Shown piece after piece: positions 3,737-31,522 of a stretch of DNA of 41,234 bases; the first letter of the stretch is position 1, and each line of letters opens with the position of its first letter. This stretch comes from a virus. Below the pieces are notes generated by a model that saw nothing but the letters and a program-made list of their open reading frames with translations, was not told the origin of the DNA and did not search any database. A program made the translations under genes and the position numbers. The stretch lies in the IMG/VR virus record IMGVR_UViG_3300034375_012070, positions 1-41,234 of that record; one strand, 5' to 3'.

Positions 3737-3896
3737 TGTCGGTGTTTGTGCCTTGAGAAACTTGCAGATAGTGGAGCTTCCATCGGGCCTGCCACTCCTG
3801 TGCATGATCCCACACCATGCCGATTCCGTAAACGCGCCACTTCCACTGATTTTCTTCGCATGGACTTTCAAGCCATGGCTCGTTACGCTCAGTCAT
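3702..3896 (-). CDS. 64-residue W-rich hypothetical protein upstream of the sigma gene
   Basis: In the 175 bp upstream of the sigma-factor ATG, this frame has protein-like composition, rich in W, E and Y ([20 protein letters not shown]...). The alternative N-terminal extension of the sigma gene in the other frame is S/G/C-rich and looks like non-coding translation. It overlaps the sigma start by 35 bp, in keeping with the crowded coding style here. No family recognised; the call rests on composition and position. Confidence 0.45.
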
Positions 3897-4157: not shown

Positions 4158-4676
4158 CTAGTTCCAAATGCTAGGCATCACGGTTTCATTCATGTTGTAG
4201 TGTCCCTTCTCTTTGTAACTAACAAGTGGAGCACCAAACATGCGATGAAAGACGATCTGTCCAATCAACATTCCTGGATAGAGCGGGATTGGATGGACCT
4301 GCCTGATGTTATGTAGCTCAAGAGTGAGCCTGCTGCCGTGGAAGCCAGGGTCAATAAAGGCACTGAGAGCATGAGAGTAACCCTCGCGCCCCCTGCTGGA
4401 CTTCAGAGCAAACTGTCCGGCTACGTCCTCCGGCATGTTCAGCAGCTCTTCCGTGGAGGCCAAGCAGAACTGCCCAGGGCGCAGCAACCAAGGATTCTCT
4501 TTTGTGAATCCATTGATGGGAGCACGCACAAAATCAGAGGATGCAGCTGACTCGATCATGATCTGATCCCCGAGTCGCACGTCATAGCTCGCTGGATTGA
4601 GCTGGTCGGGCGAAAAGGGAAGGACCATTGCTTGCTCTTTGCACAAGCGTTCAATCTCTAAATCGTTAAGAATCAC
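4158..4676 (-). CDS. dcd: dCTP deaminase / dUTPase-superfamily protein
   Basis: This 172-residue member of the Dcd/Dut trimeric fold probably deaminates dCTP to dUTP to feed dTTP synthesis. It opens with the typical ILNDLEIERLC helix. The nucleotide-binding KSSRGREG lies at 92-99, the IDPGFHG strand at 108-114, and TLELHN carries the catalytic Glu120. The start is GTG 4676, overlapping the upstream stop. It ends a minus-strand run that also contains MazG, suggesting a nucleotide-pool module. A bifunctional dCTP deaminase/dUTPase cannot be excluded by eye. Confidence 0.85.
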   Translation of the reverse strand: MILNDLEIERLCKEQAMVLPFSPDQLNPASYDVRLGDQIMIESAASSDFVRAPINGFTKENPWLLRPGQFCLASTEELLNMPEDVAGQFALKSSRGREGYSHALSAFIDPGFHGSRLTLELHNIRQVHPIPLYPGMLIGQIVFHRMFGAPLVSYKEKGHYNMNETVMPSIWN

Positions 4677-4831
4677 TGATCCTCTTTCTTGCGCAGTGCT
4701 TCTACCTGCATGATTGCGTATTGCGCAAATGCAACATGTGACGCAGCGGCTTGTTTATTGGCCGGCGCAAAAGGAAAAGATTCTTTCCAATAGCTTTGAA
4801 AGAGTTCTTCAAGGTTGATCGACTTAGGCAT
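4673..4831 (-). CDS. 52-residue hypothetical protein in the mazG-dcd cluster
   Basis: The frame starts at ATG 4831 (MPKSINLEELFQSYWKESFP...) and ends at TGA 4673-4675, overlapping the GTG start of dcd. It has two amphipathic helices and a charged end (RKKEDQ). It is one of four consecutive tiny genes between mazG and dcd, all overlapping or nearly touching, so they are very likely one transcript. No function recognised. Confidence 0.6.
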   Translation of the reverse strand: MPKSINLEELFQSYWKESFPFAPANKQAAASHVAFAQYAIMQVEALRKKEDQ

Positions 4832-4973
4832 CGCCTTGCCCCTCTTTCATGTATTTGTCAGCAAGGTTAGTATAAAGAGCATGGAGGGGATGGCTTTTAT
4901 CGTTGCGCCCGTCTTGCTCATACCAAGCATCAAGGCGATCTTGTCGCCTTTGTTCTTCGATGGGGTTAACCAT
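4824..4973 (-). CDS. 49-residue hypothetical protein (DGRN/HPLH motif)
   Basis: ATG 4973 is preferred over a longer start at 5027, because it places the gene two bases after the stop of its neighbour. The product (MVNPIEEQRRQDRLDAWYEQ...) is charged and helical and contains DGRNDKSHPLHALYTNLA. I recall this pattern as recurrent in small cyanophage and picocyanobacterial proteins of unknown function. It overlaps the following gene by 8 bp. Confidence 0.65.
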   Translation of the reverse strand: MVNPIEEQRRQDRLDAWYEQDGRNDKSHPLHALYTNLADKYMKEGQGDA

Positions 4974-4975
4974 GA

Positions 4976-5131
4976 TCAGCGAGTGAAGTGTTTTTCGATC
5001 CAGCGAGCCGCTTGAGCGCACCGCCACCCGTAACAGGCAGCGGCACGAACAAGAGCCCTCAGATTGGCAGTTAGAGCAGCCTCAGGGCGCCAAACCTGAG
5101 CAATGATGACATCAACCTCGCCGTCTGTCAT
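4976..5131 (-). CDS. 51-residue hypothetical protein (ALTANLRALVRAAA helix)
   Basis: The frame runs from ATG 5131 to TGA 4976-4978 and fills the space between two other tiny genes exactly. The product (MTDGEVDVIIAQVWRPEAAL...) is alanine- and arginine-rich with two helices and a basic end (WIEKHFTR). The repeated finding of such RALVRAAA proteins in cyanophage nucleotide clusters is from memory. No enzymatic motif seen. Confidence 0.62.
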   Translation of the reverse strand: MTDGEVDVIIAQVWRPEAALTANLRALVRAAACYGWRCAQAARWIEKHFTR

Positions 5132-5270
5132 TCGTCCCGAGCAGGATCGCCTGACCGTAGTACGGGGCGAACGGACTGTTGATCAACTGATGCCTTGCGT
5201 CAAGTTCTGACACCGCACGGAAGGTTGCAAGTTGATTGATCAGGGGAAAGTGAAAGAAGAATTTAATCAT
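5112..5270 (-). CDS. 52-residue hypothetical protein downstream of mazG
   Basis: ATG 5270 lies one base after the mazG stop (TGA 5272-5274), making this start the natural one over the longer frame that begins inside mazG. The product starts MIKFFFHFPLINQLATF and contains DARHQLINSPFAPYYGQAIL. The aromatic N-terminus is too short for a clear membrane span. It overlaps the next gene by 20 bp. Function unknown. Confidence 0.55.
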   Translation of the reverse strand: MIKFFFHFPLINQLATFRAVSELDARHQLINSPFAPYYGQAILLGTNDRRRG

Positions 5271-5271
5271 T

Positions 5272-5661
5272 TCAGTTGATAGCGACGAGATCATCAAGCA
5301 CGGGCGGCTTGTAATTCGGCCCCTTTAGTACTTTCCCGTCTTCATTTCTAATTGGGCGCCCGCTGTCATCCAGTTTGCTCAAATTGCTGTCAAGCACTCG
5401 CCGCATCGTTTCATCAAGATCCCAGCCCATGTTCTCTGCTGCTTGATAGCAGACAAAGACGAGATCGGCGAGTTCCTTCAGAAGCGCAGTATGCGTTGAT
5501 AGATCGCTCTGCCTGAATGCGTCGAAAGCCTCTATAACTTCCGTGTACTCTTCAATGATTAGCTTGATCTGCAAATTATATTGATGACTTCCTCGCTCAT
5601 TATTGCTTTTAACTTCAAAAGCTTCTCTCCATAGCCTCGCCTGTTTCTGTAGTGATGTCAT
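5272..5661 (-). CDS. mazG: MazG-like nucleoside triphosphate pyrophosphohydrolase
   Basis: The 129-residue protein has the MazG/dUTPase-like all-alpha signature: EE37-38, E41 and, after a spacer, E63-L-A-D66, which bind Mg2+ and the triphosphate. Such enzymes hydrolyse (d)NTPs to monophosphates. Phage MazG has been proposed to tune nucleotide pools or (p)ppGpp in infected cyanobacteria, although tests of cyanophage MazG favour dNTP substrates. It is followed within one base by a chain of tiny genes and dcd, and preceded by a terminator, so it heads its own transcript. Confidence 0.82.
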   Translation of the reverse strand: MTSLQKQARLWREAFEVKSNNERGSHQYNLQIKLIIEEYTEVIEAFDAFRQSDLSTHTALLKELADLVFVCYQAAENMGWDLDETMRRVLDSNLSKLDDSGRPIRNEDGKVLKGPNYKPPVLDDLVAIN

Positions 5662-5673
5662 TGTTGTGATTAA

Positions 5674-5707
5674 CGAAGAAAAAGAAAGCCCCAGCTTTCG
5701 CTAGGGC
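5674..5707 (-). terminator. rho-independent terminator after cyAbrB
   Basis: On the minus strand GCCCTAGC-GAAA-GCTGGGGC forms an 8-bp stem (one G-T pair) with a GNRA-type loop, followed by a T-rich run (TTTCTTTTTCTT). It lies 20 bp after the cyAbrB stop and just before the mazG start. Confidence 0.85.
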
Positions 5708-5726
5708 ATTGAACCTGATGGGTTGA

Positions 5727-6275
5727 TCAGAGATCCAGGTCGTCGCCGCTGTCATCTGCAGAAGCAGCTTCATCAGCGCAGGGGGTCAGGATGATCTTGC
5801 CTTCCTCGGCTGTGACGCTCACCTTGCTGCCGGGCTCGAAGCCAGCGATGGTGGCATGACGAGAGCCGACGACGCAGTTGCCGGTCTTGCCCACGGTGAT
5901 GATCGGGGCGCGGCCACGACGAGCGGTGTAGGCACGCTTAGCGGGAACAAAGGCGATGCCAGTGCTGGCTTCAGTGACAGCCTTGAAAAACTCGTTCTTG
6001 TGCAGGCGAGTGCTGGTTTCGCCGGTCTCGGAGTCGGTTTCCTTGGTGTAGTAGCCGGCGCCGAATGCAAGATCCTCAGGGGGCAGGCTTTGGTTAGCTT
6101 GCACGTAATCGAGCAGCTCCTGACCAGCTTTGCGCTCGCCGCTCACTTTTACTTTGGTGGACTTGTTGGCTTCGCTGGTTTCAGTTTCCAGGACAGCAGC
6201 TTCAGTAGGCATTTTGGTGTCGTCGAGTTCGATGGGATCAAGGACGGCTTCCGCGTCCTGTTTTTTGCGTGCCAT
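5727..6275 (-). CDS. cyanobacterial AbrB-like (cyAbrB) transcriptional regulator
   Basis: The 182-residue protein follows the cyAbrB layout. An N-terminal helical part has AGQELLDYV (49-58), a GYYT turn (74-77) and a helix FFKAVTEASTGI (96-107). These lead to RRGRAP (119-124) and a C-terminal swapped-hairpin type DNA-binding domain (VGKTGNCVVGS...GFEPGSKV). In cyanobacteria cyAbrB proteins control carbon/nitrogen and stress genes, so a phage copy may adjust host metabolism or phage timing. The acidic tail (DDSGDDLDL) and acidic N-terminus differ from the shorter host proteins. ATG 6275 is chosen over an upstream start that lies inside the promoter. GC content is higher than in its neighbours. 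Confidence 0.82.
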   Translation of the reverse strand: MARKKQDAEAVLDPIELDDTKMPTEAAVLETETSEANKSTKVKVSGERKAGQELLDYVQANQSLPPEDLAFGAGYYTKETDSETGETSTRLHKNEFFKAVTEASTGIAFVPAKRAYTARRGRAPIITVGKTGNCVVGSRHATIAGFEPGSKVSVTAEEGKIILTPCADEAASADDSGDDLDL

Positions 6276-6299
6276 AAAGGCGGGGTGGTTGACTTGTGC

Positions 6300-6328
6300 A
6301 AGATAGCACATTGAGCGCGTTCTTGCAA
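6300..6328 (-). promoter_or_regulatory. sigma70-type promoter of cyAbrB
   Basis: On the minus strand TTGCAA, a 17-bp spacer and TATCTT with an upstream TG (TGTGC before the -10) lie 25 bp before the cyAbrB ATG. The -10 and start region share TGCTAYCTTRCACAAGTC with the ERF promoter at 11227-11256. Confidence 0.65.
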
Positions 6329-6338
6329 GAAGTCGTCG

Positions 6339-6878
6339 TCAGGGCTTCAGAGCAAGCATCATTGCCGATGCTGCCGTTGCATCCAGACGAGAGATTTTGA
6401 TGTGTGCGCCGGGTCCGTCCTTCGGGTCACAAAAAACCTTCATGGATGTGGCGGCGACAATCAAAGCGTCGTCATCGTAACATATTTTTGTCAATGCGTC
6501 GCCACAGGCTCTTAGGAGTTTGTCTGCATCGCCCTTGACCGAATGAAACACTGGTGCGCCCTGCTTCAACTCGCCTCTACTGTTAAAATGAATCTTTGGA
6601 CGTGGCATATAAAATAGTGCGTTAAGCATAAAAATGCCATCTGTCGCCCAATCACGAGGGCGCATAAGCGTTGCCACACGCCCGATAGAAGCCCTCCAGG
6701 CATAGAGGCCCTTGGACTGCTCCACCATTGCTACAGCGACCTTCTGACGGCCCTCCTTGTCGGTGTAGGCGCGGCCAAACGCACTCTTTGAGCCCTGCGT
6801 CTCAGGCTTGCCAGCGACAAAGAAGGAATAGGACTGAACAGAGCACTGCTCAAGCGTTGTGATCAAATTCGCTGTCAT
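6339..6878 (-). CDS. rusA: RusA-family Holliday junction resolvase
   Basis: The 179-residue endonuclease resolves branched DNA made by recombination and replication. It has the RusA core: FFVAGKPETQGSKSAF (19-34), YMPRPK (90-95) and KGDADKLLRACGDALT (115-130) with its acidic metal-binding residues. CYDDDALIV (133-141) supplies further acidic residues. ATG 6878 is chosen, giving 29 bp overlap with the gene before. It sits in the replication/recombination operon with ERF, SSB and a RecB-like nuclease. Confidence 0.88.
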   Translation of the reverse strand: MTANLITTLEQCSVQSYSFFVAGKPETQGSKSAFGRAYTDKEGRQKVAVAMVEQSKGLYAWRASIGRVATLMRPRDWATDGIFMLNALFYMPRPKIHFNSRGELKQGAPVFHSVKGDADKLLRACGDALTKICYDDDALIVAATSMKVFCDPKDGPGAHIKISRLDATAASAMMLALKP

Positions 6879-7587
6879 TCGCAGAGGGCTCTTCTTTGTA
6901 GATTTCAATTAGCTTAGCTATTAAAACGCGCCTCTTTTTTCTGTCAAGACGCTTGCTGAGAGCCTTTGCAAGATCCTCTACTTGCAAGATTGTTGGGTGC
7001 TTGTATAGAGCAAGGGGCTTGAGTCGTTCTTTCTTTTCCCAAAAACCAAGATCTTGTGCGCAGTCTGTTACATCTTTGTATTTTCTTTCTGCGCCGATCT
7101 CTTGCAAAAGCTCAGGATATTGATGATACAATCTGCGAAGAATGTTTATTCGCCTCCACTTTTCTCGTTTATCTCTCTTGTATTTACCATTTATGTAAGC
7201 ATCAATTCTTCTAAATTCAAGATATTCATGCGGCAGGTCATACTTGTCATGCTGTTCACCAAGCCACTTAACAAATCTTGCGGCGCACTGAGCCTGCGTT
7301 CTGTCTTTAGTCGCAGCCTTTGCACAATTTGCCAAAAATGTTGGCATTGTTTCTCTTTTTACACCTAGTCCATAATGAGAATTAAAGATAAAGTCCTTCA
7401 TTCCAGCAAGTTTTATCTCTTTGCCCGTGAATGTTTTATAGCCCAGGTAAAACTCATTTTTGATTATCTTGCACATTGTTACAAAAAACGCCTCGGAGCT
7501 TTCGTTATTCACAATTGCCCCGAGGTGTAAGCGTGCATCAGCTACAAGCCGCGCCCCATAAAATTCGTCACTTTTGTCTTTTAGCAT
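6850..7587 (-). CDS. 245-residue hypothetical protein in the replication operon
   Basis: This is a basic, lysine- and arginine-rich helical protein without a recognised domain. The N-terminal part has conserved-looking segments (FYLGYKTFTGKEIKLAG, FNSHYGLGVKRETMP), and the C-terminal half is highly charged (KYKRDKREKWRRINILRRLY). It overlaps the kinase gene by 7 bp and rusA by 29 bp, so the three are translated together. A nucleic-acid-binding function in recombination is plausible from charge and context only. Confidence 0.7.
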   Translation of the reverse strand: MLKDKSDEFYGARLVADARLHLGAIVNNESSEAFFVTMCKIIKNEFYLGYKTFTGKEIKLAGMKDFIFNSHYGLGVKRETMPTFLANCAKAATKDRTQAQCAARFVKWLGEQHDKYDLPHEYLEFRRIDAYINGKYKRDKREKWRRINILRRLYHQYPELLQEIGAERKYKDVTDCAQDLGFWEKKERLKPLALYKHPTILQVEDLAKALSKRLDRKKRRVLIAKLIEIYKEEPSANDSEFDHNA

Positions 7588-8135
7588 CCTGCGGCTTTGT
7601 CAATCTTCGCCCTGAAGTCAGCAATTGTACCGTCATTGATGATGACTTGATCAAATGACTCCCATTTGTCAAGTGCGCCTTCTGATTCATGAGTCGTATT
7701 TCTTTGTGCTGACGGACGAATAATCATCCACATCTCGCCTCCTATCTTTTTGACTAATTCGGCTTCGTTTTGAAAACGAACGTCATCAATAATAATTTTA
7801 GAGTCGCTGTCTTTTAGATGAGAAGCAACGCGAGACATCATGCAATCTAGCCAGATCTCGCTACCTATACAATTACGCCCCCACTCTGTTCCTAGTGTTT
7901 GCAGTATGTGCCTAGCAGTCGTTTTAATCGCAGGAATTGTCTCTTCTTTGCTCGCCCATACAAATCTGACTGCTTGTTCTTTGGGATAGCCGAAAGACAT
8001 GATAAACTCCGTCGCCATTTTCTTTATTGGTTCGGCGAAGCTCATCGTTTTGTATCCACTTTGCTCCAAAACACTCGCCGTGAATGTTTTCCCCGACTGA
8101 GGGGCGGGACTATAAAGTCCAATGAGCTGAGCCAT
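7581..8135 (-). CDS. phage deoxynucleoside monophosphate kinase
   Basis: A 184-residue P-loop kinase that would phosphorylate dNMPs for phage DNA synthesis. The Walker A motif SPAPQSGKT is at residues 9-17. It is followed by the GYKTMSFAEPIKKM segment typical of phage dNMP/adenylate kinase-like proteins, and a Walker B-like IIIDDVRFQNEAE near residue 115. ATG 8135 (MAQLIGLYS) is preferred to an in-frame TTG two codons upstream. It works with MazG and Dcd in nucleotide metabolism. Confidence 0.85.
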   Translation of the reverse strand: MAQLIGLYSPAPQSGKTFTASVLEQSGYKTMSFAEPIKKMATEFIMSFGYPKEQAVRFVWASKEETIPAIKTTARHILQTLGTEWGRNCIGSEIWLDCMMSRVASHLKDSDSKIIIDDVRFQNEAELVKKIGGEMWMIIRPSAQRNTTHESEGALDKWESFDQVIINDGTIADFRAKIDKAAGC

Positions 8136-8159
8136 TAGCAATTAAGGGTTGAGCGAATT

Positions 8160-8189
8160 ATACAAGAAAACCCCCTTTCGGAGGTTTTC
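8160..8189 (-). terminator. hairpin between the ssb side and the dNMP kinase gene
   Basis: GAAAACCCCC-TTTC-GGAGGTTTTC folds into a stem with one mismatch. On the minus strand TTTTC ends the stem, giving a weak U-tract, so it could end the SSB transcript. T-runs on both arms make a bidirectional terminator possible. Confidence 0.5.
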
Positions 8190-8216
8190 AAGTCTTGGAC
8201 TTACGAGTGGTCTGCC

Positions 8217-8348
8217 TTAATAGAGCCCAGAAGCCATGACTGGCCGGATCCGCTCTACTCCCAGATAAGACCCCAGCTTGCTGATGCTTTTACAGGTGGC
8301 TTCCACCGCATGGTCCGAGCAGTGGCTGTAACAGCATCGGGGAGGCAG
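8217..8348 (-). CDS. possible 43-residue Cys-containing protein, unusual start
   Basis: The 247-bp gap between ssb and the kinase gene holds one open minus-strand frame reading PPRCCYSHCSDHAVEATCKS... to TAA 8217-8219. It has protein-like composition and four cysteines and two histidines that could bind a metal. No ATG, GTG or TTG follows the upstream in-frame stop, so CTG 8348 is the best start. I rate it only as possible; the rest of the gap shows just the hairpin at 8166-8189. Confidence 0.3.
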   Translation of the reverse strand: MPPRCCYSHCSDHAVEATCKSISKLGSYLGVERIRPVMASGLY

Positions 8349-8388
8349 ATATACGAGCCGATAGCGTTAGCTCTACTCTGCCAAGAAA

Positions 8389-8736
8389 TCAGAACGCAAC
8401 TTCCGGGTCAATTGTCTTGCGCTCGGAGTCGCCGTTCATCTTTTCAGGAAGCGTGAAGTCCATGGCATCCATATAAATAGACGCGTACTCACTACCGTCC
8501 TGCTTCTTTTTGCCGCTAATGTTTCGTACACCACCGATAATGGTCACTTGGCGACCATCCATCATGTACTTAGAGGCTACGTCAATCTTCTTGCCGTAGA
8601 AGACTGCGTTGATGTAATGAGTTTGTTTGCCGTTGGTGGTTTTAGAGCGAATGGTGACAGTGGCGCGTTTGCCGTATTCAGTGTCTTCCACCTTGGGTTC
8701 ACCTGTGATGAAACCGCTGGCAGTGATTGTGAGCAT
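8389..8736 (-). CDS. ssb: single-stranded DNA-binding protein
   Basis: The 115-residue protein has a single OB-fold domain (MLTITASGFITGEPKVEDTE..., HYINAVFYGKKIDVASKYM, GRQVTIIGGVRN) and lacks the long acidic tail of bacterial SSB. It ends in DPEVAF, so only a short acidic/aromatic terminus is available for partner binding. It starts two bases before the end of the exonuclease gene upstream and belongs to the same operon as ERF. Confidence 0.88.
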   Translation of the reverse strand: MLTITASGFITGEPKVEDTEYGKRATVTIRSKTTNGKQTHYINAVFYGKKIDVASKYMMDGRQVTIIGGVRNISGKKKQDGSEYASIYMDAMDFTLPEKMNGDSERKTIDPEVAF

Positions 8737-8738
8737 GT

Positions 8739-9500
8739 TTAGATGGCGACGTTAATCGCCCGAGGAAGTGAGACGTTTTCGAGTGAGGTGTAAGCGTTTA
8801 AGCGCTCGATAAACTCTTGCGCTTTTGCTTTCAGCTCTTGCTTGTCCAGAACGTGAATGTGTGGTTCACGCCAGTCATAGCAAACACAGATTACACCCTG
8901 AGTTATCTGATTGTCAAGCTCACCTTTTTTTACGGCAAGATTGTGAGCAAGCGCATATGAAGCAATCTGAACCTCGGCTTCTTTGTAGTGCGACATTGAT
9001 TTTGGTTTTTTCTTCACGCCATCTTCTTTGTATGAGCGTACTGTTTTCCAGTCCCAGATTGTGTATTGACCTTCCCAGGTAAGGCGAAGGTCAGCCGTAC
9101 CTGCATAACCGAGATCGCAAAACAATTCTTCTTCCATCAGGAATGACGGCTTGCTGGCTCCATTCTTGAAGTTTTCGTTTTTGATTAAGTCAAGGACAGG
9201 CGAAAGATGAGTGATGTACTCGTGAATGTTGTATTCCATGATTTCATCCATTGTCGGATGATCCATTTTGTGTTTATCTGCGTCGCCCATGAACGAAAGT
9301 TCAACTTCTGAGTGAATGATTGTTCCCCTTCGTTGCGCCCGTTGCATGATTTCCTGCCAATTTGGCTCCATCTGACGCCAGATCTCCAAGCCCTTCATCT
9401 TGTTCGGATTGAAGAGTTCAGACGTGCGCCCCAGCACCGTGCTGACAGAGACGTACTCGCGGTCGTCTTTTATGTAGAAACCTGAGCGTGGGTGTACCAT
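8739..9500 (-). CDS. PD-(D/E)XK exonuclease, RecB/Cas4-like
   Basis: A 253-residue nuclease of the RecB-like PD-(D/E)XK family. The motif RGTIIHSEVE (58-67) supplies the His/Glu of motif I. YAGTADL (132-138) gives the first metal-binding Asp, WDWKT (149-153) the D-x-K core, and EVQIASYALA (176-185) the Q-x3-Y helix. With the ERF annealase and SSB it forms a phage exonuclease/annealase recombination system that processes double-strand ends. The start at 9500 follows a CTCAGAAA leader instead of a Shine-Dalgarno. Confidence 0.88.
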   Translation of the reverse strand: MVHPRSGFYIKDDREYVSVSTVLGRTSELFNPNKMKGLEIWRQMEPNWQEIMQRAQRRGTIIHSEVELSFMGDADKHKMDHPTMDEIMEYNIHEYITHLSPVLDLIKNENFKNGASKPSFLMEEELFCDLGYAGTADLRLTWEGQYTIWDWKTVRSYKEDGVKKKPKSMSHYKEAEVQIASYALAHNLAVKKGELDNQITQGVICVCYDWREPHIHVLDKQELKAKAQEFIERLNAYTSLENVSLPRAINVAI

Positions 9501-9524
9501 TTTCTGAGAGTGAGATGCGTGTCA

Positions 9525-9553
9525 ATTATCGCGCAGTTGTCTTGAATTTGCAA
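9525..9553 (-). promoter_or_regulatory. sigma70-type promoter upstream of the exonuclease gene
   Basis: On the minus strand TTGCAA, 17 bp and GATAAT lie 25 bp upstream of the exonuclease ATG, with a CTCAGAAAATG leader. The -10 departs from consensus at one position. Confidence 0.5.
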
Positions 9554-9564
9554 GCAAGCTACGC

Positions 9565-10029
9565 TCATTCTTCAAAGTATGGGCAGTCTGAAGCAAATGC
9601 TCCCCCTGCCTCAGGAATGTCAAGGTCGCAGCTTCCTTTCCACCAGTGCTTGCAGTTGCGACAGGACTTTCCATCCCCGCCTACGAGCTTTGGCCTGCTG
9701 CCTGAGTTGTTTCGCGGAAGCTCAGGGAAGAGGTGCTTGTGCGATTGACCTGTTCTGACTTGGCTAATAGTCTGATGTGTGACCTTAAGGATTTTTGCAA
9801 TTTCACCCCCAGGGCGAGGGTCGGTAAGAATTAGATAAATGTCGTCAGTTGATAGCCATTTGTACCTAGGCGGCAGTGGAACTTCTTTTTTTCGCTTTGT
9901 GTCATAATAAACTTTCCATCGATGCCCACAGCACTTGCAGCGAAGAAAGTACGTCCTTATGTTGCGTTGATTTTTCCAGTTGTGTGTTGAGATTATTTTT
10001 CTAAAGGTGTGCGTGCAGTGTTTAGCCAT
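9565..10029 (-). CDS. HTH DNA-binding protein flanked by two zinc-binding motifs
   Basis: The 154-residue product begins with a zinc-ribbon-like part (RCKCCGHRWKVYY, C31/C33/C34 with H5/H7). A helix-turn-helix follows at about 75-95 (EIAKILKVTHQTISQVRTGQ). It ends in a second Cys cluster (C123-x2-C126, C134, C149; SCRNCKHWW...DCPYFEE), a small domain I associate with cyanobacterial and cyanophage regulators. It is probably a transcriptional or replication regulator. It overlaps the membrane-protein gene upstream by 8 bp. Confidence 0.72.
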   Translation of the reverse strand: MAKHCTHTFRKIISTHNWKNQRNIRTYFLRCKCCGHRWKVYYDTKRKKEVPLPPRYKWLSTDDIYLILTDPRPGGEIAKILKVTHQTISQVRTGQSHKHLFPELPRNNSGSRPKLVGGDGKSCRNCKHWWKGSCDLDIPEAGGAFASDCPYFEE

Positions 10030-10198
10030 TCCAGTGACGGATTACACCAGCGATGATAAAGCAGTTCGTCGTTAAATAGCTAAGCAGGATCAGCAGCCTT
10101 ACGAAGGCGACATGATCTGACTCCTGATCGCACGAGCTTGCTTTTTCGCCCAGCGCCTTAGCAGTCAAGCGCCACGCTTTTCGCCTAAAAAACCTCAT
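10022..10198 (-). CDS. 58-residue single-span membrane protein
   Basis: ATG 10198 to TAA 10022-10024, overlapping both neighbours. A basic, W-containing N-terminus (MRFFRRKAWRLTAKALG) and an acidic CDQESDH stretch precede a hydrophobic segment at about residues 33-53 (VRLLILLSYLTTNCFIIAGV). The basic side is predicted to be cytoplasmic. I recall very similar proteins in cyanophages. Its role in an otherwise replication-related operon is unknown; superinfection exclusion is a conceivable job for such proteins. Confidence 0.68.
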   Translation of the reverse strand: MRFFRRKAWRLTAKALGEKASSCDQESDHVAFVRLLILLSYLTTNCFIIAGVIRHWNG

Positions 10199-10445
10199 GA
10201 GATTGAGGCGGCCTAGGAGATGGGCGGCGTTCAGCGCGGAGTGCCATCGCAGCCTCGTAGCCGTCGTTGTCCCTAACCAGCTCGCAGCACGCCTCCAACT
10301 CTTGATCGGCGCCCCATCGGACGGCGTGGTCGATGACGTCGAGCATGGGCTTTTGAAGGGGGATGACTACGGTGTTGCCGTAGATCTCGTGGACCCATTT
10401 AGCCGCCAGTTCTGGCGATGGCCCGGAGATGGGGTGGTCAGTCAT
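10185..10445 (-). CDS. 86-residue conserved hypothetical protein (ADQELEACCE motif)
   Basis: ATG 10445 (MTDHPISGPSPELAAKW...) overlaps the ERF stop by 8 bp. The core GADQELEACCELVRDN and the C-terminal basic ALRAERRPSPRPP match a very common small protein of Synechococcus phages and related cyanobacterial islands, from memory. No function is established that I know of. The double Cys in a helix is the only notable feature. Confidence 0.72.
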   Translation of the reverse strand: MTDHPISGPSPELAAKWVHEIYGNTVVIPLQKPMLDVIDHAVRWGADQELEACCELVRDNDGYEAAMALRAERRPSPRPPQSHEVF

Positions 10446-11193
10446 CACCAAACGCCTCCTCAGCAGCCTTCGCTAGTTCATCAATCGAGTTCGCAGCGCT
10501 CAGTTGATCTTGTACGGGCGCAGGAATAATTTGTGCGCCTTTGCTGTTCTTGCCTTGGTTGAACATCTTGATGTGATCAGCGCCAACCGCTTTCAAGAGT
10601 GCAGTGGCTTTGTTTTCTGCTATCGCATCAATACTTTCGGATTCCGTCAGCGCCAGCACGGTTTTGATGCCGTAGGGGGTGATGCCCAGCTCGTTCAGCT
10701 TGCTCTCCAGCTTGCGCTGCAGAGAGATCTCAGGCGACGCTTCAGCGGGCTCAGGGGCAGAAACAGGAGCGGGAGATGATCGCTTTGCTGGTGTCGCAGA
10801 GCTACGAGCGCCATCGCTACCCAGAACGGCGTCTAGGGCGTCGTGCTCAACGATCTCCATCGCCGTCACCCACAGGTAACGACGTAGGTAGGTCTGCACT
10901 GCGCCGAGATTCTGAATTTCGTGTGCGCCCTTGAGCGCAGCAGACGACATTGGCGAAGAGATCAGAATCTTGTCGTCGGGTTTGTCGCAGTCGTAGACCG
11001 TGAGAACTGCTTGCTCGGTGCCATAGCTGACAACACCGCAAATGCCAAGCTTCAAAAAGATTTCTTGAACAGTTGGGAGGAAATCACCAAGTTCAAAGTA
11101 ATTGTATCCAGCAAATTTGTTTTTGCCGCTTTTCGACAGCTTTTTGCCCTGCAGTGCGATGCGTGCCTGCATGAGCTTTTGATGAACCGACAT
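10438..11193 (-). CDS. erf: ERF-family single-strand annealing recombinase
   Basis: The 251-residue protein anneals complementary single strands during phage recombination. The N-terminal ERF core spans about residues 1-135: LMQARIALQGKKLSKSGKNK, FAGYNYFELGDFLPTVQEIF and NLGAVQTYLRRYLWVTAMEI, followed by EHDALDAV. A P/A/S-rich linker and a helical C-terminal domain come next. It sits upstream of the SSB and exonuclease genes in the same direction, the usual annealase/nuclease partnership. It begins with a TCAGAAAACATG leader and its own promoter. Confidence 0.88.
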   Translation of the reverse strand: MSVHQKLMQARIALQGKKLSKSGKNKFAGYNYFELGDFLPTVQEIFLKLGICGVVSYGTEQAVLTVYDCDKPDDKILISSPMSSAALKGAHEIQNLGAVQTYLRRYLWVTAMEIVEHDALDAVLGSDGARSSATPAKRSSPAPVSAPEPAEASPEISLQRKLESKLNELGITPYGIKTVLALTESESIDAIAENKATALLKAVGADHIKMFNQGKNSKGAQIIPAPVQDQLSAANSIDELAKAAEEAFGDD

Positions 11194-11762: not shown

Positions 11763-12339
11763 ACGTCTGATTGAAATGCAGGCGCTCAAAATCATAGATT
11801 GAACTCAGCGTCTCCTCCAATTTTTCCGCACGCTCCATCACTTCTTTGACTTGCCCAAGATAATCAACAACGTATCTTTTGTTAGCAGCGGCAAATTTAG
11901 AAAGAGCGGCGACTAGATAAATTGCTTTTTTAGTGCAGCGCTTGTTTGCGTAAAACTCATCAAGTCGCATCTCGTGAAAAACGCATTCATCGCGTAGCGC
12001 ATTTACGAACGCAAACACTTTGTCTCGCTTTTTGATAAAAGTGCGTGTAATGTTAACGCACTTTTTTCTAAAAGCTCTTTTGTCCTCATAGCGCAAGAAT
12101 CTGTAATCGAAGTCATCAACTAAAGCGAACCCATAAGAGTTATTTGCAAATCCACACGCTTGCGAGAATAGAGCATAACTGTCCAAACCAACTTTTACTT
12201 TATCGCCCAACTTCAAGTATTGAGGCGGTGCAAAAGATGTTCCGTCGTAGCAAAATATCACTTCATCGTTCCACCTACATTTGTCGTCTGTATTGCGTCC
12301 GCAGATTGGGCAAGATTCACGGCGAGAGGAATGCTTCAT
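11698..12339 (-). CDS. zinc-ribbon protein next to DnaB (primase-like?)
   Basis: The 213-residue product starts with a Cys4 zinc ribbon: C10-x2-C13, C21 and C30 in CPICGRNTDDKCRWND...FCY. This arrangement resembles the zinc module of phage primases. The rest is helical and basic without a visible TOPRIM or primase catalytic motif. It overlaps the DnaB start by 4 bp. A helper of the helicase, such as a loader or primase accessory, fits the context but is inferred. Confidence 0.65.
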   Translation of the reverse strand: MKHSSRRESCPICGRNTDDKCRWNDEVIFCYDGTSFAPPQYLKLGDKVKVGLDSYALFSQACGFANNSYGFALVDDFDYRFLRYEDKRAFRKKCVNITRTFIKKRDKVFAFVNALRDECVFHEMRLDEFYANKRCTKKAIYLVAALSKFAAANKRYVVDYLGQVKEVMERAEKLEETLSSIYDFERLHFNQTYDDKQENISSAKLDSDLHTAP

Positions 12340-13763
12340 AGTTGACTCATCGAATCAAGCATTGCATAAAACTGTGCAGCAAACGTTGCATTGCATGTTC
12401 CCGTCGCACCTTGTCTATTTTTCACAACGGCGTACTCATAAAGAAGTGGGTCGGCTTCTTTGTCGTAGTAATACGGCCAGAAATTCATAATTACAACATC
12501 AGCATCTTCTTCGATGCGACCTGATTCACGTAGATCAGAAAGCATTGGACGCTTGTTGTCACGCATTTCCACGCCCCTGTTGAGCTGGCAGACGGCGAGG
12601 ATGTCAACACCTGTCTGAAGGGCAACTGTCTTGAGGCGTCGCGTTGCCTTGCCAACAGCAAGTGCTCTGTTTTCGCTTGAAACTTTTTCTGAGTCGAGAT
12701 CAAGCAAAGTAAGGTAATCTATAACGACAAGCCCAAGATCTTTATTTTTACGCTTCTCTGTTTTGATTTTAGAAACAACTTGATCGGGTGTAACGTCGTA
12801 AGTTTTTGCAAAGATCAGATTCTTTGCTATTTCTTCTAATTGCATTTCACGCAGGCGTTCTTCTTGATCTTTGTCGCGTGCTTGTCGAATGACATGCGCA
12901 TAAGACAAAGGATTGCGTGCGTTGTTCTCGATGCAATTAAGATAGTCCATGCAACTTATCATTCTATCGCAGACTTCTTTTTCTGACATCTCAAGCGTGT
13001 AGAACAGTACTTTGCACTTTTTCATTGCAACGTCAAGTGCAAGATTCATTGCCCAGGTTGATTTGCCAGAGCCCGGTCGCCCTGCCACAACGATGAGCCT
13101 GCCCTTGTCTGCGCTGTCCGGGTGACGGATGCCTCCACCCAAGCAGCTGTTCAGCCCGCTGAAACGGGTCTGCAAGACCCTGTTGATCAGCTTCGGGCCT
13201 AGGAGTATCTCCCGAGAGGCGAGGAGGGGGTGTAGGGCCTCCTGAGCGAGGTCATTCCCGTCGAGCAGTTCGGCGGCATGAAGAACATTCGCAAGAGCAA
13301 CTTTTGATTCGGCTTGACTGCAGCTTTTATTTACAAGATCAAGCGACGTTGCAAGATAATCTTTGATCAGACGGCGAGAACGATGAAACTTCCAGATGGG
13401 CAGAATTTGAAAGCGCCAGGTGTCTAGATCATTTTCAATCGGCAAACTAGCAATACTTTGCACATATTCCTCAGCAGCTCTTAGCTCGCAAGAGGATGCG
13501 TTTTTTAGGCGAGTCGAAAATGTAATGTCATTGATGGGCGCATGTGAAAAGTTAGTGAACTCTTCATATAAGCAGCTGTATGCGTATCTGTTAAATGGGT
13601 CGCTGAATAGCTCAGTAGATTTTGGTAGATCCATGAATTCACAGATCCAATCATTATCGCCTACGTCAAAAGAAAGATGATTATATGCGGCGGCAAGAAA
13701 GTGTTTTTCAATTGCTGATGAGTCAGCAGCAGTTTCAAAATTGGCGAGGTCGAGAAGAGTCAT
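12336..13763 (-). CDS. dnaB: DnaB-type replicative helicase
   Basis: A 475-residue hexameric 5'-3' helicase that unwinds the phage fork. An N-terminal helical domain (about 1-170) is followed by the RecA-like motor with Walker A GRPGSGKS (228-235), FYTLEMS (254-260) and Walker B LVVIDYL (345-351). DILAVCQLNRGVE and RESGRIEEDADVVI cover the sensor/H4 region. The upstream gene encodes a probable initiator, so this is the core replication module. The start at 13763 has a GGAAAC sequence just before it. Confidence 0.95.
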   Translation of the reverse strand: MTLLDLANFETAADSSAIEKHFLAAAYNHLSFDVGDNDWICEFMDLPKSTELFSDPFNRYAYSCLYEEFTNFSHAPINDITFSTRLKNASSCELRAAEEYVQSIASLPIENDLDTWRFQILPIWKFHRSRRLIKDYLATSLDLVNKSCSQAESKVALANVLHAAELLDGNDLAQEALHPLLASREILLGPKLINRVLQTRFSGLNSCLGGGIRHPDSADKGRLIVVAGRPGSGKSTWAMNLALDVAMKKCKVLFYTLEMSEKEVCDRMISCMDYLNCIENNARNPLSYAHVIRQARDKDQEERLREMQLEEIAKNLIFAKTYDVTPDQVVSKIKTEKRKNKDLGLVVIDYLTLLDLDSEKVSSENRALAVGKATRRLKTVALQTGVDILAVCQLNRGVEMRDNKRPMLSDLRESGRIEEDADVVIMNFWPYYYDKEADPLLYEYAVVKNRQGATGTCNATFAAQFYAMLDSMSQL

Positions 13764-13795
13764 GTTTCCGAGCAGAGTGGTTGAGTTTGTAGATC

Positions 13796-14650
13796 CTACA
13801 CCATGTCTTCCGCAAAAGCAACAGAGATCATGGGGAGCTGTGGACTTTGAAACTTAGAGTTATTTGCATTACTCTGCCCATAACGCTGCCAGTTGTCATA
13901 CGTGATCGACGCCCATTTCTTTTCACCCATCTCAGATCGCTTAATTGCAACAGCAAGTTGACTTTGTACTGCTTTGATGCCGCCGCTTTTGTCAAGTTTA
14001 ATTTGCAGCAGTTCTTTGATTAGCCCATCGAAAGCGCGTTTTGTTTTTGCGCCCGACTTGTGCAAGTTGAAAAATGCACAAACGTCGTCAGCGACATTTT
14101 GCAAGTCAAATGGAATGTGTTTCGTCTCGGCGGTGAAGCGTGCGCTGCTCGTCGATGCCGCTGGAGGCGTCGCCGGGCGCTGGGCTACTTGGTTTTCTAG
14201 AGATTGGTTTTCTGGATTTATTGGTCTTCTTATAGTCACTGGTTTTCCGTCTGACGGGTTATCCGTCTGACGGGTTTTCAGGGAGACGGTGGAACCGTCT
14301 GACGGGTTTTCAGGGAGACGGCCCTTCTTTGGCTCACTTGGACGATCTTTGAAAATAAGACCCCAGCCAACTATTATTCCAGTTTTCTCGCACCTATTTA
14401 TTTTGTCTTCTAGGTATCCGTATTTGCGAAGTTCGTTCAATGCGTTATTTACTGCGTCTCGCCCTTCTGTTCCATGATCAATAATCCAGGACTTGTTGAA
14501 TTGAAAGTTGCCTGCATGGCTCATGCAGCCAGCAAGTATTCCTTTTGCACGCCAGCTAATACGATCATCTCTGATCGCATCGTTTAAGATCATTGTGAAA
14601 CGAGCTGACTCGTTTTCAGCTTTTGCATACTGCGTGGTTTCGTTCGTCAT
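13796..14650 (-). CDS. replication initiator / replisome organiser (lambda O-like layout)
   Basis: The 284-residue product has an N-terminal winged-helix-like domain (RFTMILNDAIRDDRISWRAK..., TEGRDAVNNALNELRKYGYLED; about 17-85). A low-complexity linker (about 105-165) follows, then a C-terminal helical domain (about 180-260) ending in WASITYDNWQRYG. This is the layout of phage replication organiser proteins that bind the origin and recruit DnaB. The linker codons contain three copies of a palindrome (14247-14321), as in lambda O where the origin lies inside the gene. It directly precedes dnaB. Confidence 0.75.
   Translation of the reverse strand: MTNETTQYAKAENESARFTMILNDAIRDDRISWRAKGILAGCMSHAGNFQFNKSWIIDHGTEGRDAVNNALNELRKYGYLEDKINRCEKTGIIVGWGLIFKDRPSEPKKGRLPENPSDGSTVSLKTRQTDNPSDGKPVTIRRPINPENQSLENQVAQRPATPPAASTSSARFTAETKHIPFDLQNVADDVCAFFNLHKSGAKTKRAFDGLIKELLQIKLDKSGGIKAVQSQLAVAIKRSEMGEKKWASITYDNWQRYGQSNANNSKFQSPQLPMISVAFAEDMV
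14189..14321. repeat. candidate replication origin: palindromic iterons plus AT-rich repeats in the initiator gene
   Basis: Three copies of CCGTCTGACGG (palindrome around a central T) occur at 14247-14257, 14263-14273 and 14295-14305. The last two belong to an identical 27-bp direct repeat (14263-14289 and 14295-14321). Just beside them lies an AT-rich tract with TTGGTTTTCT-type repeats at 14189, 14204, 14221 and 14239. Iterons plus an AT-rich flank inside an initiator gene match the lambda ori arrangement. The repeats could instead only encode a repetitive linker (NPSDG). Confidence 0.55.
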
Positions 14651-14663
14651 GGTTTCTGAAAAG

Positions 14664-14852
14664 TCAGTTGGCGTTGGAGTCTAGCACTTCTTGCAAAATA
14701 AGCAAGCCCCTCTTTGCTGCTTCTACTTGCTGCTTGTAGATACGTGCAAAGCCGTGCGAGTCTTCTTTTGCTGCAAGCTGCAATTTAAGAGCTGCGAGTG
14801 AGATGATAATTTCTTCTATCGCATGTGATCTTTTACGTTGCGCTGTCGTCAT
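14664..14852 (-). CDS. 62-residue helical hypothetical protein
   Basis: ATG 14852 (MTTAQRKRSHAIEEIIISLA...) is chosen because the longer frame up to 15050 lies inside another gene and reads like non-coding sequence. The product is one long helix rich in A, K, E and Q, probably a coiled coil. It overlaps the upstream gene by 20 bp and lies 13 bp before the initiator gene. Function unknown. Confidence 0.6.
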   Translation of the reverse strand: MTTAQRKRSHAIEEIIISLAALKLQLAAKEDSHGFARIYKQQVEAAKRGLLILQEVLDSNAN

Positions 14853-15228
14853 AATCGGGTGCATTTCCTGAAGCTGTATAGCGATAGAGATCGGATCCGA
14901 AGTGTTGCTGAACAAGTCGTGCAACTGATTCATTGATTTCTTTGTCAGCAGCTTGAAGAACTTTTTTGAGTTTTGCGTGAAGCTCGTACTCTTGTTGATC
15001 AAGTACGTCAATTTGTCGTTCAAGGTTTTCGTATTGAACTGACTCATCATCGCATGTTGTCATTTGCAGAAGAAGTTTGTTGCGTTGATCTTTGATTTGT
15101 TGCAGGCGTTCTTTGTGTTTTGCGCGAGACGTGACTAGGATGTTCCTGGCACGCACGGCACGCTCTAGGTCTGTGAGCATCGAGGGTGTCCAGTTTTTTG
15201 CAAGTGTGTACCAGTGCCACTCGTACAA
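14833..15228 (-). CDS. 131-residue coiled-coil hypothetical protein
   Basis: The start is TTG 15228 (YEWHWYTLAKNW...); an alternative ATG lies at 15180 (MLTDLERAVRARN). Residues 25-100 form a long charged coiled coil (KERLQQIKDQRNKLLLQ, LERQIDVLDQQEYELHAKLK). The TTG start codon falls in the loop of a 7-bp hairpin. The gene overlaps its downstream neighbour by 20 bp. No function recognised. Confidence 0.6.
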   Translation of the reverse strand: MYEWHWYTLAKNWTPSMLTDLERAVRARNILVTSRAKHKERLQQIKDQRNKLLLQMTTCDDESVQYENLERQIDVLDQQEYELHAKLKKVLQAADKEINESVARLVQQHFGSDLYRYTASGNAPDYDDSAT

Positions 15229-15236
15229 AGTGGCAC
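15214..15236 (-). repeat. inverted repeat enclosing a TTG start codon
   Basis: GTGCCAC (15214-15220) and GTGGCAC (15230-15236) pair perfectly around a 9-base loop that contains the TTG start of the 131-residue gene. In RNA this could control access to the start. Confidence 0.5.
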
Positions 15237-15244
15237 ATGCAGTC

Positions 15245-15625
15245 TTACTTTGCAGTCAGCGCCTCGCTCGGGTGAGCCTTGACGATCTTTTTCGTCTTCT
15301 GCTTCGCCTGCGTTTCTTCTTTTTCGGCGTGAAGTGCAAGATGTTTTTCTAGGGCGTTAAGATGCGGGCACTTGCTGCCGACTGCGTGACGCTTGAAGAA
15401 TTCGCGCAGCTCTTCTAATTTGCCAAACTCGTACGCAGCCTGTTCTTCACCCCATTTGCCAAAGGTTCTATCTAGTACGAAAAGTTCGTACCATTCCTGA
15501 TCGTCGAGATAACGACGCTTTGCCGCCCAAAGCAGATCCTTGTGTCGCAGTTTATTTTTCCTGCGATCTTCTTTTTCTTTACGTGCTTTTTCCTGGGCCT
15601 CGCGGCGAGAAAGAAAAGTTGCCAT
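15245..15625 (-). CDS. 126-residue charged hypothetical protein
   Basis: ATG 15625 follows a TTTCAGAAAA leader. The product is highly charged and helical (SRREAQEKARKEKEDRRKNK), with a central region KLEELREFFKRHAVGSKCPH and a lysine-rich tail. Single Cys-Pro-His elements do not make a complete zinc site. Composition suggests nucleic-acid binding. It is part of the minus-strand run of small genes in front of the replication genes. Confidence 0.62.
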   Translation of the reverse strand: MATFLSRREAQEKARKEKEDRRKNKLRHKDLLWAAKRRYLDDQEWYELFVLDRTFGKWGEEQAAYEFGKLEELREFFKRHAVGSKCPHLNALEKHLALHAEKEETQAKQKTKKIVKAHPSEALTAK

Positions 15626-15648
15626 TTTTCTGAAAGTGAAAGAGTTGA

Positions 15649-15891
15649 TCAGATGAGAGAGAGCTGCTTGCGATTTGCTTCTTTGATAAGAATCTCAATC
15701 GCAGTTCGTGAAAGATGAATTTGCGGAAAAATCCAGTAATCATATTTTTTCCCGCCCCAGATCTTGCATTTGTAATGCGGGAGAAAAGAATTACAGGCGA
15801 CTTCTTCGACGATCTCAAACTCGTCGGAGCCATGCCACCGGGCGAAGACCACCTCCCCCGGCTTGAATCGCAGCCTCTCTGGCCTTGCCAT
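15649..15891 (-). CDS. 80-residue conserved hypothetical protein (WHGSDEFEIVEEVACNS)
   Basis: ATG 15891 (MARPERLRFKPGEVVFARWHG) is preferred to the codon just upstream. The protein has a small SH3/Tudor-like beta pattern (FKPGEVVFARW..EIVEEVACNSFLPHYKCKIW) ending in a helix (AIEILIKEANRKQL). It resembles a small protein I know from cyanophage replication regions; function unknown. It is served by the promoter 30 bp upstream, whose -10 lies inside an inverted repeat. Confidence 0.68.
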   Translation of the reverse strand: MARPERLRFKPGEVVFARWHGSDEFEIVEEVACNSFLPHYKCKIWGGKKYDYWIFPQIHLSRTAIEILIKEANRKQLSLI

Positions 15892-15910
15892 CACAAGGTT
15901 TTTGCATAGA

Positions 15911-15947
15911 ACCTCTTAAGTATAAGGTAAGAGGTGTCAGGCGTCAA
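15911..15947 (-). promoter_or_regulatory. promoter with -10 framed by an operator-like inverted repeat
   Basis: On the minus strand TTGACG, 17 bp and TATACT (15919-15947) precede the 80-residue gene. ACCTCTTA (15911-15918) and TAAGAGGT (15928-15935) form an 8-bp inverted repeat centred on the -10 box, as expected for a repressor operator. Confidence 0.65.
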
Positions 15948-15976
15948 TGCAAGTCAGCAAATGAACAGCAGTTTCG

Positions 15977-16234
15977 CTACGGTGCAGAAATAATTCTTTC
16001 TTTGCGATTATTCATTCTCGCAGTTTGCACATTTAATCTCCAGGCGAATGAATCTATTTCCATCATGCTTTCAAGAAGTTGCTTTCTATATTTTTTGTCA
16101 ACTGCAAGATGATTGTCAAGCAGCAGATCTTCAAGCTCTCTTGCGGACTCCGCAGTTGCTTCAAGATTTTCTTTGAGCTTGCGCACAAATAAATGCACAA
16201 GCTGTTTTTCTTTGTCAGATGCGGGAAACTGCAT
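15977..16234 (-). CDS. 85-residue helical hypothetical protein
   Basis: ATG 16234 (MQFPASDKEKQLVHLFVRKL...) is chosen, giving a 20-bp overlap with the gene upstream. The product is helical with probable coiled-coil stretches (LKENLEATAESARELEDLLL, KYRKQLLESMMEIDSF) and a basic end. No motif recognised. It ends 30 bp before the promoter of the next minus-strand gene. Confidence 0.6.
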   Translation of the reverse strand: MQFPASDKEKQLVHLFVRKLKENLEATAESARELEDLLLDNHLAVDKKYRKQLLESMMEIDSFAWRLNVQTARMNNRKERIISAP

Positions 16235-16391
16235 GACTCTTTTCTTTGCGCACGTGGATTTCCGTGGCGTCTGGGTGCATTTGCTCAAGCGCTCTGATTG
16301 CTTCGCTAGCGTTTTCCTGCTGGATTCGACCCGAGAAGATTTTCTCACTCGCGCCGAATGGCACGATTACGGCGTAGAAGAAGCGAGACAC
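16215..16391 (-). CDS. 58-residue hypothetical protein, first gene of the minus block
   Basis: GTG 16391 (SRFFYAVIVPFGASEKIFSG) is preferred to the upstream TTG because a GAGGG ribosome site lies 8 bases before it. The product has a beta-alpha pattern (FYAVIVPF...NASEAIRALEQMHPDATEIHV) like small ferredoxin-type folds. It is divergent from the plus-strand accessory block; the 64 bp between them contain the outward promoters of both arms. Function unknown. Confidence 0.6.
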   Translation of the reverse strand: MSRFFYAVIVPFGASEKIFSGRIQQENASEAIRALEQMHPDATEIHVRKEKSHAVSRI

Positions 16392-16455
16392 GACATGAGC
16401 CCTCAAAAGCTTATGGCGATTTTAACGTATCATCTTTCTTGCACGCAATAGATTT

Positions 16456-17004
16456 GTGTCTAGCGCTACGAAAAAAGCTTTTAAGCATCGCATTCAGCTT
16501 GCGCCGCAAGAGTTCCTGCCAAGGCAGAAAGCTGTCAGGAAGCACGCATCAATCAAGTGGAAAGAGAATGCTTTGTATGTCATGCGTCGCAGATATTACT
16601 TTCAAGTATTGAAGGCGAATGTTAAACTAAAGCAAAGGTGGTGGAATAATTACTGTATTACTCGTATTGGCGCACCCGAAGTTGGTGAATTTCTTTGTAG
16701 TGAAACTTTCTACGTTGCGCAGATTTCTTTGCCTGCAGACGCTGTAAGGTTTCGCTCTTATTGGTACTGGTGTCGTTTGCGTTCTTTTCAAATACTCGAA
16801 TGGCTGTGGGAGCTTGATGAGAAAGATTACTGTTGGAAGCTGCATCAGTACTTGAAAGGGTTTATAGTCACCAAGCGCCCAATACTTTCAGAGGTCGAAA
16901 GATATGACACAAAGGCGAGTGAAGAAATTGTGCTTCAAATATTCGGAGACTGGGGCGCTGCTATTTACAGAAACACAAACGAAGAAACGCTTCGCGCTTT
17001 GTAA
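16456..17004 (+). CDS. 182-residue basic W/Y-rich hypothetical protein
   Basis: The start is GTG 16456 (MSSATKKAFKHRIQLAPQEF...). The protein is basic in its first third and very rich in W, Y and F (RRRYYF, QRWWNNYC, SYWYWCRLRSFQILEWLWEL). It is soluble-looking and without metal sites. It is the first gene of the plus-strand accessory block, so it may be expressed immediately after entry. The following frame overlaps it by 101 bp, so either start of the second gene is internal or the two belong together. Confidence 0.6.
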   Translation: MSSATKKAFKHRIQLAPQEFLPRQKAVRKHASIKWKENALYVMRRRYYFQVLKANVKLKQRWWNNYCITRIGAPEVGEFLCSETFYVAQISLPADAVRFRSYWYWCRLRSFQILEWLWELDEKDYCWKLHQYLKGFIVTKRPILSEVERYDTKASEEIVLQIFGDWGAAIYRNTNEETLRAL

Positions 17005-30971: not shown

Positions 30972-31522
30972 TTTGCATTTATCGCATTCATTCATGATTT
31001 GCATTCATTCGCGCATTCACAACATTCATTTACGCGTGTCATTCAAATTGCATATATTTGTGCATACATTAGATTTGCACACTAAGTGACATTCTTTTAG
31101 CGTATTAGATTTATTTGTTAATTACATTTATTTGCTATTTGCATTTGTTTGTTATTTAGATTTGCGCGAAACTTTATTTATTTGCAATTTAGATTTATTT
31201 GTAATTTGCAAAGATTTATTATTCCAGGTGATTTGTTAAATGTATTTATTTGTTAGCGATTGCTATTTGTTAATTAACGATTGCTATTTATTATTTAGCA
31301 AATGTTATTTATTTGCAATACACAGTGATTTGTTAAATATATTATTTGTTGCGAATGTGTTAAATGTTATTTAACGATTGCAATGTATTTGTAACTAGCA
31401 AGGATTCCTGATAGATAGAAATACTTTGCAGGTGTGACTTATTTGTAATTGATAGTATTTCCTGGAGAATAGTATTTAACAACAAATGCTAGTTATTTGT
31501 ATTTGCGTTGAATCGTTACTTT
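30972..31522 (+). repeat. AT-rich, repeat-filled non-coding region (candidate origin or pac region)
   Basis: This 550-bp stretch has no gene. It begins with CATTCATT repeats (30978-31030) and continues with many TTATTTG/ATTTGTTA units. Longer exact repeats are GTGATTTGTTAAAT at 31228 and 31325, and CGATTGCTATTT at 31257 and 31278, with a variant at 31375. Extreme AT content next to a Rep-like gene suggests an origin or a DNA-unwinding element. A packaging-site function is the alternative, because terS and terL genes flank it. Confidence 0.55.

Follow-up and report, generated by a model that had tools for sequence, protein, structure and literature searches.

Origins nested within the gene of their own initiator are a kind already known, since such plans are shown by the phages TP901-1 and Tuc2009, by pPR9 and by the O gene of lambda. 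In the lactococcal P335 phages TP901-1 and Tuc2009, the initiators ORF13 (Rep) and ORF16 (Rep2009) bind repeat-rich regions in their own genes, which serve as ori according to the summary in a later paper (PMC8965321). The RepA_N initiator of pSK41 has a winged-helix N-terminal domain that binds boxes located centrally in its own gene, and the ori-encoded central linker of this Rep is dispensable; in a chimeric initiator of pPR9, a PF13730 (HTH_36) N-terminal domain was swapped together with the origin and autonomous replication was supported (PMC5703833). The lambda O gene contains four 18-bp palindromic iterons that are read in different frames. Lambda loads the DnaB of its host through P.

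The window analysed here spans an entire IMG/VR virus record (41,234 bp), in which a row of palindromic repeats followed by an AT-rich tract lies within a replication initiator gene. We propose that array and tract together constitute the cis-acting replication origin of this phage, situated within its own initiator gene where the linker is encoded, and give this reading a probability of roughly 0.86.

The initiator gene and its described counterparts

The initiator gene (13796–14650, minus strand) encodes 284 aa and matches PHROG replication-initiation and DnaD-like families (E to 8e-14), with weak matches to PHROG O-like families (E 3.5e-4 and 1.1e-3). Pfam alone gives the protein no name, PF13730 not being reached at E 0.01. 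The product consists of a winged-helix domain (approximately aa 17–107), a linker, and a C-terminal helical domain (approximately aa 181–263). The next long gene, directly downstream, is dnaB, encoding a replicative helicase with a DnaB C-terminal domain (12336–13763, minus strand; PF03796, E = 3e-55; phrog_19, E = 1.5e-54). A preliminary description of this DNA had placed the palindromes in the linker-coding part of an initiator gene next to dnaB, and the two open reading frames bear this out.

Among 20 related loci, the next long ORF after the initiator encodes a helicase or primase/helicase in five, a loader in three, and neither in 12. At four of 20 loci found by DNA alone (L069, L073, L090 and L092), it belongs to the transcription-antiterminator family phrog_6386, which suggests a recurring initiator–antiterminator pairing. 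Elsewhere in the window, a phage-encoded RNA polymerase sigma factor (2849–3871; phrog_351, E = 6e-52) adjoins an endolysin gene, and a leftward replication and recombination block (4158–11193) comprises genes for dCTP deaminase, nucleotide pyrophosphohydrolase, a RusA-like resolvase, dNMP kinase, an exonuclease and an Erf-like annealing protein. By comparison with a 70,688-bp relative (G001), the record is a circularly permuted fragment that lacks some 23 kb of that genome (about 37.7–60.7 kb).

TP901-1/Tuc2009 and the plasmid initiators of the RepA_N / HTH_36 kind are closer parallels than lambda. An HMM made from relatives of the present protein matched TP901-1 Rep with E = 2e-33; this comparison covers the N-terminal part, where the two proteins have homologous winged-helix domains. 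Both genes have repeats of 15–16-bp period in linker-coding DNA and, after them, a CTA and an AT-rich tract: TP901-1 has TTCCAGATGTGG twice at 15 bp and then GAAATCAGCAG-CTA, with the CTA 11 nt on. The iterons themselves differ (CCAGATGTGG at 15 bp in TP901-1, CCGTCAGACGG at 16 bp here), and dnaB adjoins the initiator gene here, unlike in TP901-1. As in pSK41 and pPR9, a winged-helix N-terminal domain is predicted here and candidate boxes lie in mid-gene. RepA_N is, however, another Pfam family, borne by plasmids and not phages, and the C-terminal domain of the pSK41 protein contacts DnaG primase; the RepA_N domain PF06970 gave no match at E <= 0.1 in the present protein, nor at E <= 0.01 in 50 relatives.

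The lambda plan of iterons and AT-rich DNA within the initiator gene, invoked in the preliminary description, holds as an analogy. Palindromic iterons and A-rich or AT-rich DNA are found in both initiator genes between the two domains, and in both the reading frames of the iterons differ. The lambda iterons are four 18-bp elements of the ATCCCTCAAAACGAGGGA type with other spacing, as against CCGTCAGACGG with a 16-bp period, and this phage has its own dnaB whereas lambda uses that of the host. Lambda O had no significant match to the HMM of the winged-helix family (E = 0.24), and we regard it as an analogue with no detectable homology.

The iteron array, its boundary and the AT-rich tract

The palindrome CCGTCTGACGG is an odd-length dyad, CCGTC-A-GACGG, with one central base unpaired. 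All three copies that had been described were found, at 14247, 14263 and 14295, with no further copy in the 41,234-bp record, and two of them do lie in an exact 27-bp direct repeat (14263–14289 = 14295–14321). With one mismatch allowed, the palindrome has five sites where 0.30 are expected, a number reached by none of 100 shuffles, and an exact direct repeat of more than 16 nt appeared in none of 500 synonymous-codon shuffles of the initiator gene. A chance origin of the array is excluded.

The array extends over 14242–14321 with a 16-bp period and has five units, of which three are full dyads and two are variants, CCGTCTCCCTG; Tandem Repeats Finder independently reported period 16 with 4.2 copies at 14241–14308. 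On the coding (minus) strand, from 14321 to 14242, the units read CCGTCTCCCTGAAAAC, CCGTCAGACGGTTCCA, CCGTCTCCCTGAAAAC, CCGTCAGACGGATAAC and CCGTCAGACGGAAAAC. Unit 1 (14306–14321) is a variant CCGTCTCCCTG followed by AAAAC, is in the 16-bp register and holds a 15-nt run that is invariant among relatives. It is followed by a full dyad (unit 2, 14290–14305) and by the second variant with AAAAC, again in register (unit 3, 14274–14289), which resembles variants found in Paracoccus phage Pyei1 and Arthrobacter phage Wheelbite. Units 4 (14258–14273) and 5 (14242–14257) are full dyads, the former in the other reading frame, where it encodes TRQTD and not NPSDG, the latter with AAAAC. A variant unit CC...CCTGAAAA followed by a full dyad occurs in the initiators of a Paracoccus phage, an Arthrobacter phage and a Fluoribacter plasmid (L012, L024 and L048), likewise here, and is apparently a conserved two-unit module.

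The array is bounded by the half-site unit CAGTGACTATAAGAAG (14226–14241, minus strand), whose CTA (14233–14235) starts 11 nt past the last CGG. The AT-rich tract, a candidate DNA-unwinding element of 67–68% AT, covers 14189–14241 on the minus strand and has AGAAGACCA / AGAAAACCA repeats; these are the TTGGTTTTCT repeats of the plus strand, present at 14189 and 14204 and thus adjoining the palindromes as originally reported. Ranked by AT content among 58-bp stretches, 14189–14246 (67% AT) falls in the top 0.75% for the gene but only in the top 7.5% for the record, and a 21-nt run within the tract (14210–14230) is invariant in relatives. In other loci (L060–L077), the tracts after the iterons carry 13–16-bp repeats of their own, e.g., AAGTAATACTGA or AAGAACACCATC. 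The AT-rich tracts of some members of the initiator panel described below contain CTACTAATAATA, which resembles DnaA-trio DNA.

Constraint on the DNA and recurrence in the initiator family

Seven close relatives with 76–100% protein identity were available among the viral contigs, one of them a fragment and one identical over the initiator gene; a profile search of genome contigs with the close-relative alignment found no relative. Loss of the repeats from relatives that keep the protein had been set beforehand as a check on the origin reading, and all seven retain the three dyads at identical positions. Among codons with an invariant amino acid and a degenerate code, synonymous variation was seen at three of 36 within aa 111–156 and at 92 of 140 elsewhere (Fisher p = 2e-10). 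Neither of the spacings, 16 and 32 bp, is divisible by three, and the same DNA word is read as NPSDG, TRQTD and NPSDG; selection therefore acts on the DNA. The identity of the 27-bp copies is incidental, because in most relatives one base differs between them. An overlapping or antisense gene was considered as the cause of the constraint and rejected, since the relatives have no other frame that runs through the array, apart from one of 89 aa in a single relative.

Recurrence of the arrangement was seen at larger distance. Blastn of 12000–16500 against 50,697 phage records gave one match, 124 nt of linker in Paracoccus phage Pyei1 at 75.8%. With the 151-bp array region as query, the Pyei1 match had E = 3e-15 and weaker matches (E about 0.01–0.04) came from Microbacterium phage Nicole72 and a Deinococcus plasmid. 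Each of the three lies within an initiator-type HTH gene; for the weaker matches, one of these genes is annotated as HTH and the other is a long hypothetical one with a product similar to this initiator in tblastn. Protein similarity served to assemble a panel of 26 initiators, drawn from phages and plasmids of Actinobacteria, Proteobacteria, Firmicutes, Bacteroidetes, Cyanobacteria and Deinococcus. In this panel, CCGN4-5CGG dyads cluster at gene nucleotides 290–440, with a spacing of 15 or 16 bp in most members, and are followed by AAAAYCCG-type DNA and an AT-rich tract. Some members, e.g., a Scytonema plasmid and PaV-LD, lack the layout, and PaV-LD has other strong repeats.

When run gene by gene, a codon-shuffle test for CCGN4-5CGG has little power at high GC content, and for this reason we relied on position and on scans that used DNA alone. 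A search of 2.9 million IMG/VR viral contigs, made with no protein information, for a run of three CCGN5CGG dyads separated by NNAAN spacers (period 16) found 22 contigs, in 20 of them within a winged-helix initiator ORF. The period-15 scan found at least 120 contigs, with 112 of the 120 among the matches listed inside such an ORF and a GC content of 27–70% among these listed loci; the period-17 pattern occurred in none of the IMG/VR viral contigs. Taken together, the scans at periods 15 and 16 found at least 142 contigs, and 132 of the 142 among the matches listed are inside an initiator-type gene, compared with 0 of 570 random positions in the same loci within a winged-helix initiator ORF. 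Several of the ten misses resemble truncated or diverged initiators and about three resemble GC-rich chance or protein repeats. The 132 genes are not all independent, 103 being left at <80% identity in the domain; among the matches listed, their dyad density is 13.1/kb in the linker and 0.7/kb elsewhere. The sequence past the last dyad has the consensus AAAAYCCGNCAC, with CTA starting at +11 in 43 of 134 distant loci among the matches listed. A scan with swapped half-sites was of little use as a control, since the swapped pattern is present, in another phase, in any 16-bp array whose spacers are 5 bp long; its single match was itself an initiator. As judged from these sequences, the layout is family-wide, and the initiator genes that have it belong to phages and plasmids of many bacteria unrelated to one another.

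An AlphaFold2 model based on an alignment of 50 initiators gives a confident winged helix, with block means >90 for most of aa 21–100, predicted helices at 33–43, 53–59 and 64–76, and strands at 80–86 and 93–100; the linker has low confidence, and the C-terminal domain is helical with moderate confidence. A first model from close relatives only had a mean pLDDT of 43 and was discarded. PF13730 (HTH_36) is matched by 32 of the 50 aligned relatives. Foldseek of the model against the PDB gave no match at E <= 0.001, and phmmer against PDB sequences gave nothing relevant. VIA-align Z-scores reached 8.3, a level common to many unrelated winged helices, so that the fold does not decide the family. 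The scores of 4pql (Z 8.2, rmsd 3.4, 85 aligned) and 5kbj (Z 7.4, rmsd 3.8, 86 aligned), which we take to be RepA_N proteins, are likewise tied with those of many unrelated winged helices.

In a set of 103 non-redundant initiators, no column of the HMM tells more about the dyad core than column 63 (z = 4.4), which keeps this rank after stratification of pairs by overall identity (0.087, with a spread of 0.018). At dyad position 5, Arg63 is accompanied by C in 24 of 35 cases and Tyr63 by A in 10 of 13 (p about 1e-5). The column corresponds to N68 in the present protein, inside the predicted recognition helix 64–76, and this particular case (N68 with core TC) is poorly predicted by the residue-63 rule. 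Part of the covariation may come from shared ancestry, the correction for phylogeny being incomplete. As independent, statistical evidence, the covariation hints that the winged-helix domain reads the dyads.

Proposed mode of action, rival explanations and significance

In the mechanism we envisage, the N-terminal winged-helix domain would bind the row of 16-bp iterons, each dyad probably taking an initiator dimer, to judge from its symmetry. The row of iterons could thereby organize a nucleoprotein complex against the conserved boundary of half-site and CTA, and this complex would melt the adjacent AT-rich tract. DnaB from the adjoining phage gene would then be delivered, possibly via the C-terminal domain of the initiator. 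The encoded linker would be a spacer only, a passive translation of the origin of the kind reported for the pSK41 Rep (PMC5703833), and the DNA word could therefore be read in any frame.

The repeats would be a by-product at the DNA level if the linker needed NPSDG-like peptides, and the 15-bp period of many family members, which gives in-frame pentapeptide repeats, suits such an account. It is nevertheless extremely improbable: dyads in more than one frame encode different peptides (NPSDG and TRQTD) here, and more than one frame is used in 27 of the 132 genes among the matches listed; synonymous positions are frozen; and scans keyed to DNA land in the initiator gene nearly every time. We also consider it very unlikely that the array is an in-gene operator or an mRNA hairpin controlling expression of the initiator and dnaB, and not an origin. 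Palindromes would suit a repressor dimer, and neighboring dyads can pair into an RNA hairpin, the transcript of the array being more stably folded than its shuffles (z -3.7 to -4.7), which tandem palindromes would lead one to expect. Against this, little or none of the stem comes from the AAAAY spacers, the CTA boundary or the AT-rich tract, promoter-like sites are no commoner in the region than in shuffles, and the homologous repeats of TP901-1 are reported as ori (PMC8965321). The array may have a second role in mRNA, and autoregulation via the same sites could exist alongside an origin.

Another site may be sought at 31105–31313, a long non-coding AT-rich stretch between the small and large terminase genes with tandem repeats of 17 bp (six copies) and 21 bp (3.4 copies). 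The rise in cumulative GC skew ends near 31 kb, and relative G001 has similar 21-bp repeats. That the main origin is at such a place, with the in-gene array secondary, is unlikely in our view: the position between terminase genes and the ends of the G001 contig, which fall in the corresponding region, fit a packaging site or genome end equally well, and no initiator gene adjoins this stretch. Possible roles for it are a packaging site, a genome end or a second origin. The cumulative GC skew of the record is lowest at 8.6 kb; that of the 70.7-kb relative, once detrended, is lowest at 14.3 kb (p = 0.07, not significant), with the iterons of this relative at 16.5 kb. As the minimum of the relative falls at a gene-strand switch, GC skew is uninformative as an origin test and neither supports nor refutes an origin within the gene. 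On balance, the interpretation of the palindromes as part of an in-gene origin is supported by the comparisons of sequence.

It is somewhat probable that the arrangement amounts to a single portable origin grammar, embedded in the genes of a very large HTH_36-related initiator family whose phages and plasmids come from many bacterial phyla. In such a grammar, CCGN4-5CGG dyads would recur at 15 or 16 bp and lead to a last half-site AAAAYCCGNCA, then CTA and an AT-rich tract, with specificity coming largely from one recognition-helix residue that would read the dyad core. In the open-access literature, to which our search was confined, we found neither the family-wide signature nor the residue-63 relation described, and both look new.

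To our knowledge, the origin has been mapped in only a minority of environmental phages. With the present signature, a probable origin and initiator site could be read from sequence in many phages and phage-like plasmids with winged-helix initiators. The locus is also a clean natural case of DNA-level selection within a coding sequence, one word being kept in different frames. Because residue 63 covaries with the dyad core, a recognition code, and with it replicon compatibility, can be tested directly. If true, the combination of a portable grammar and one-residue specificity would make origins and replicon compatibility groups predictable from sequence.
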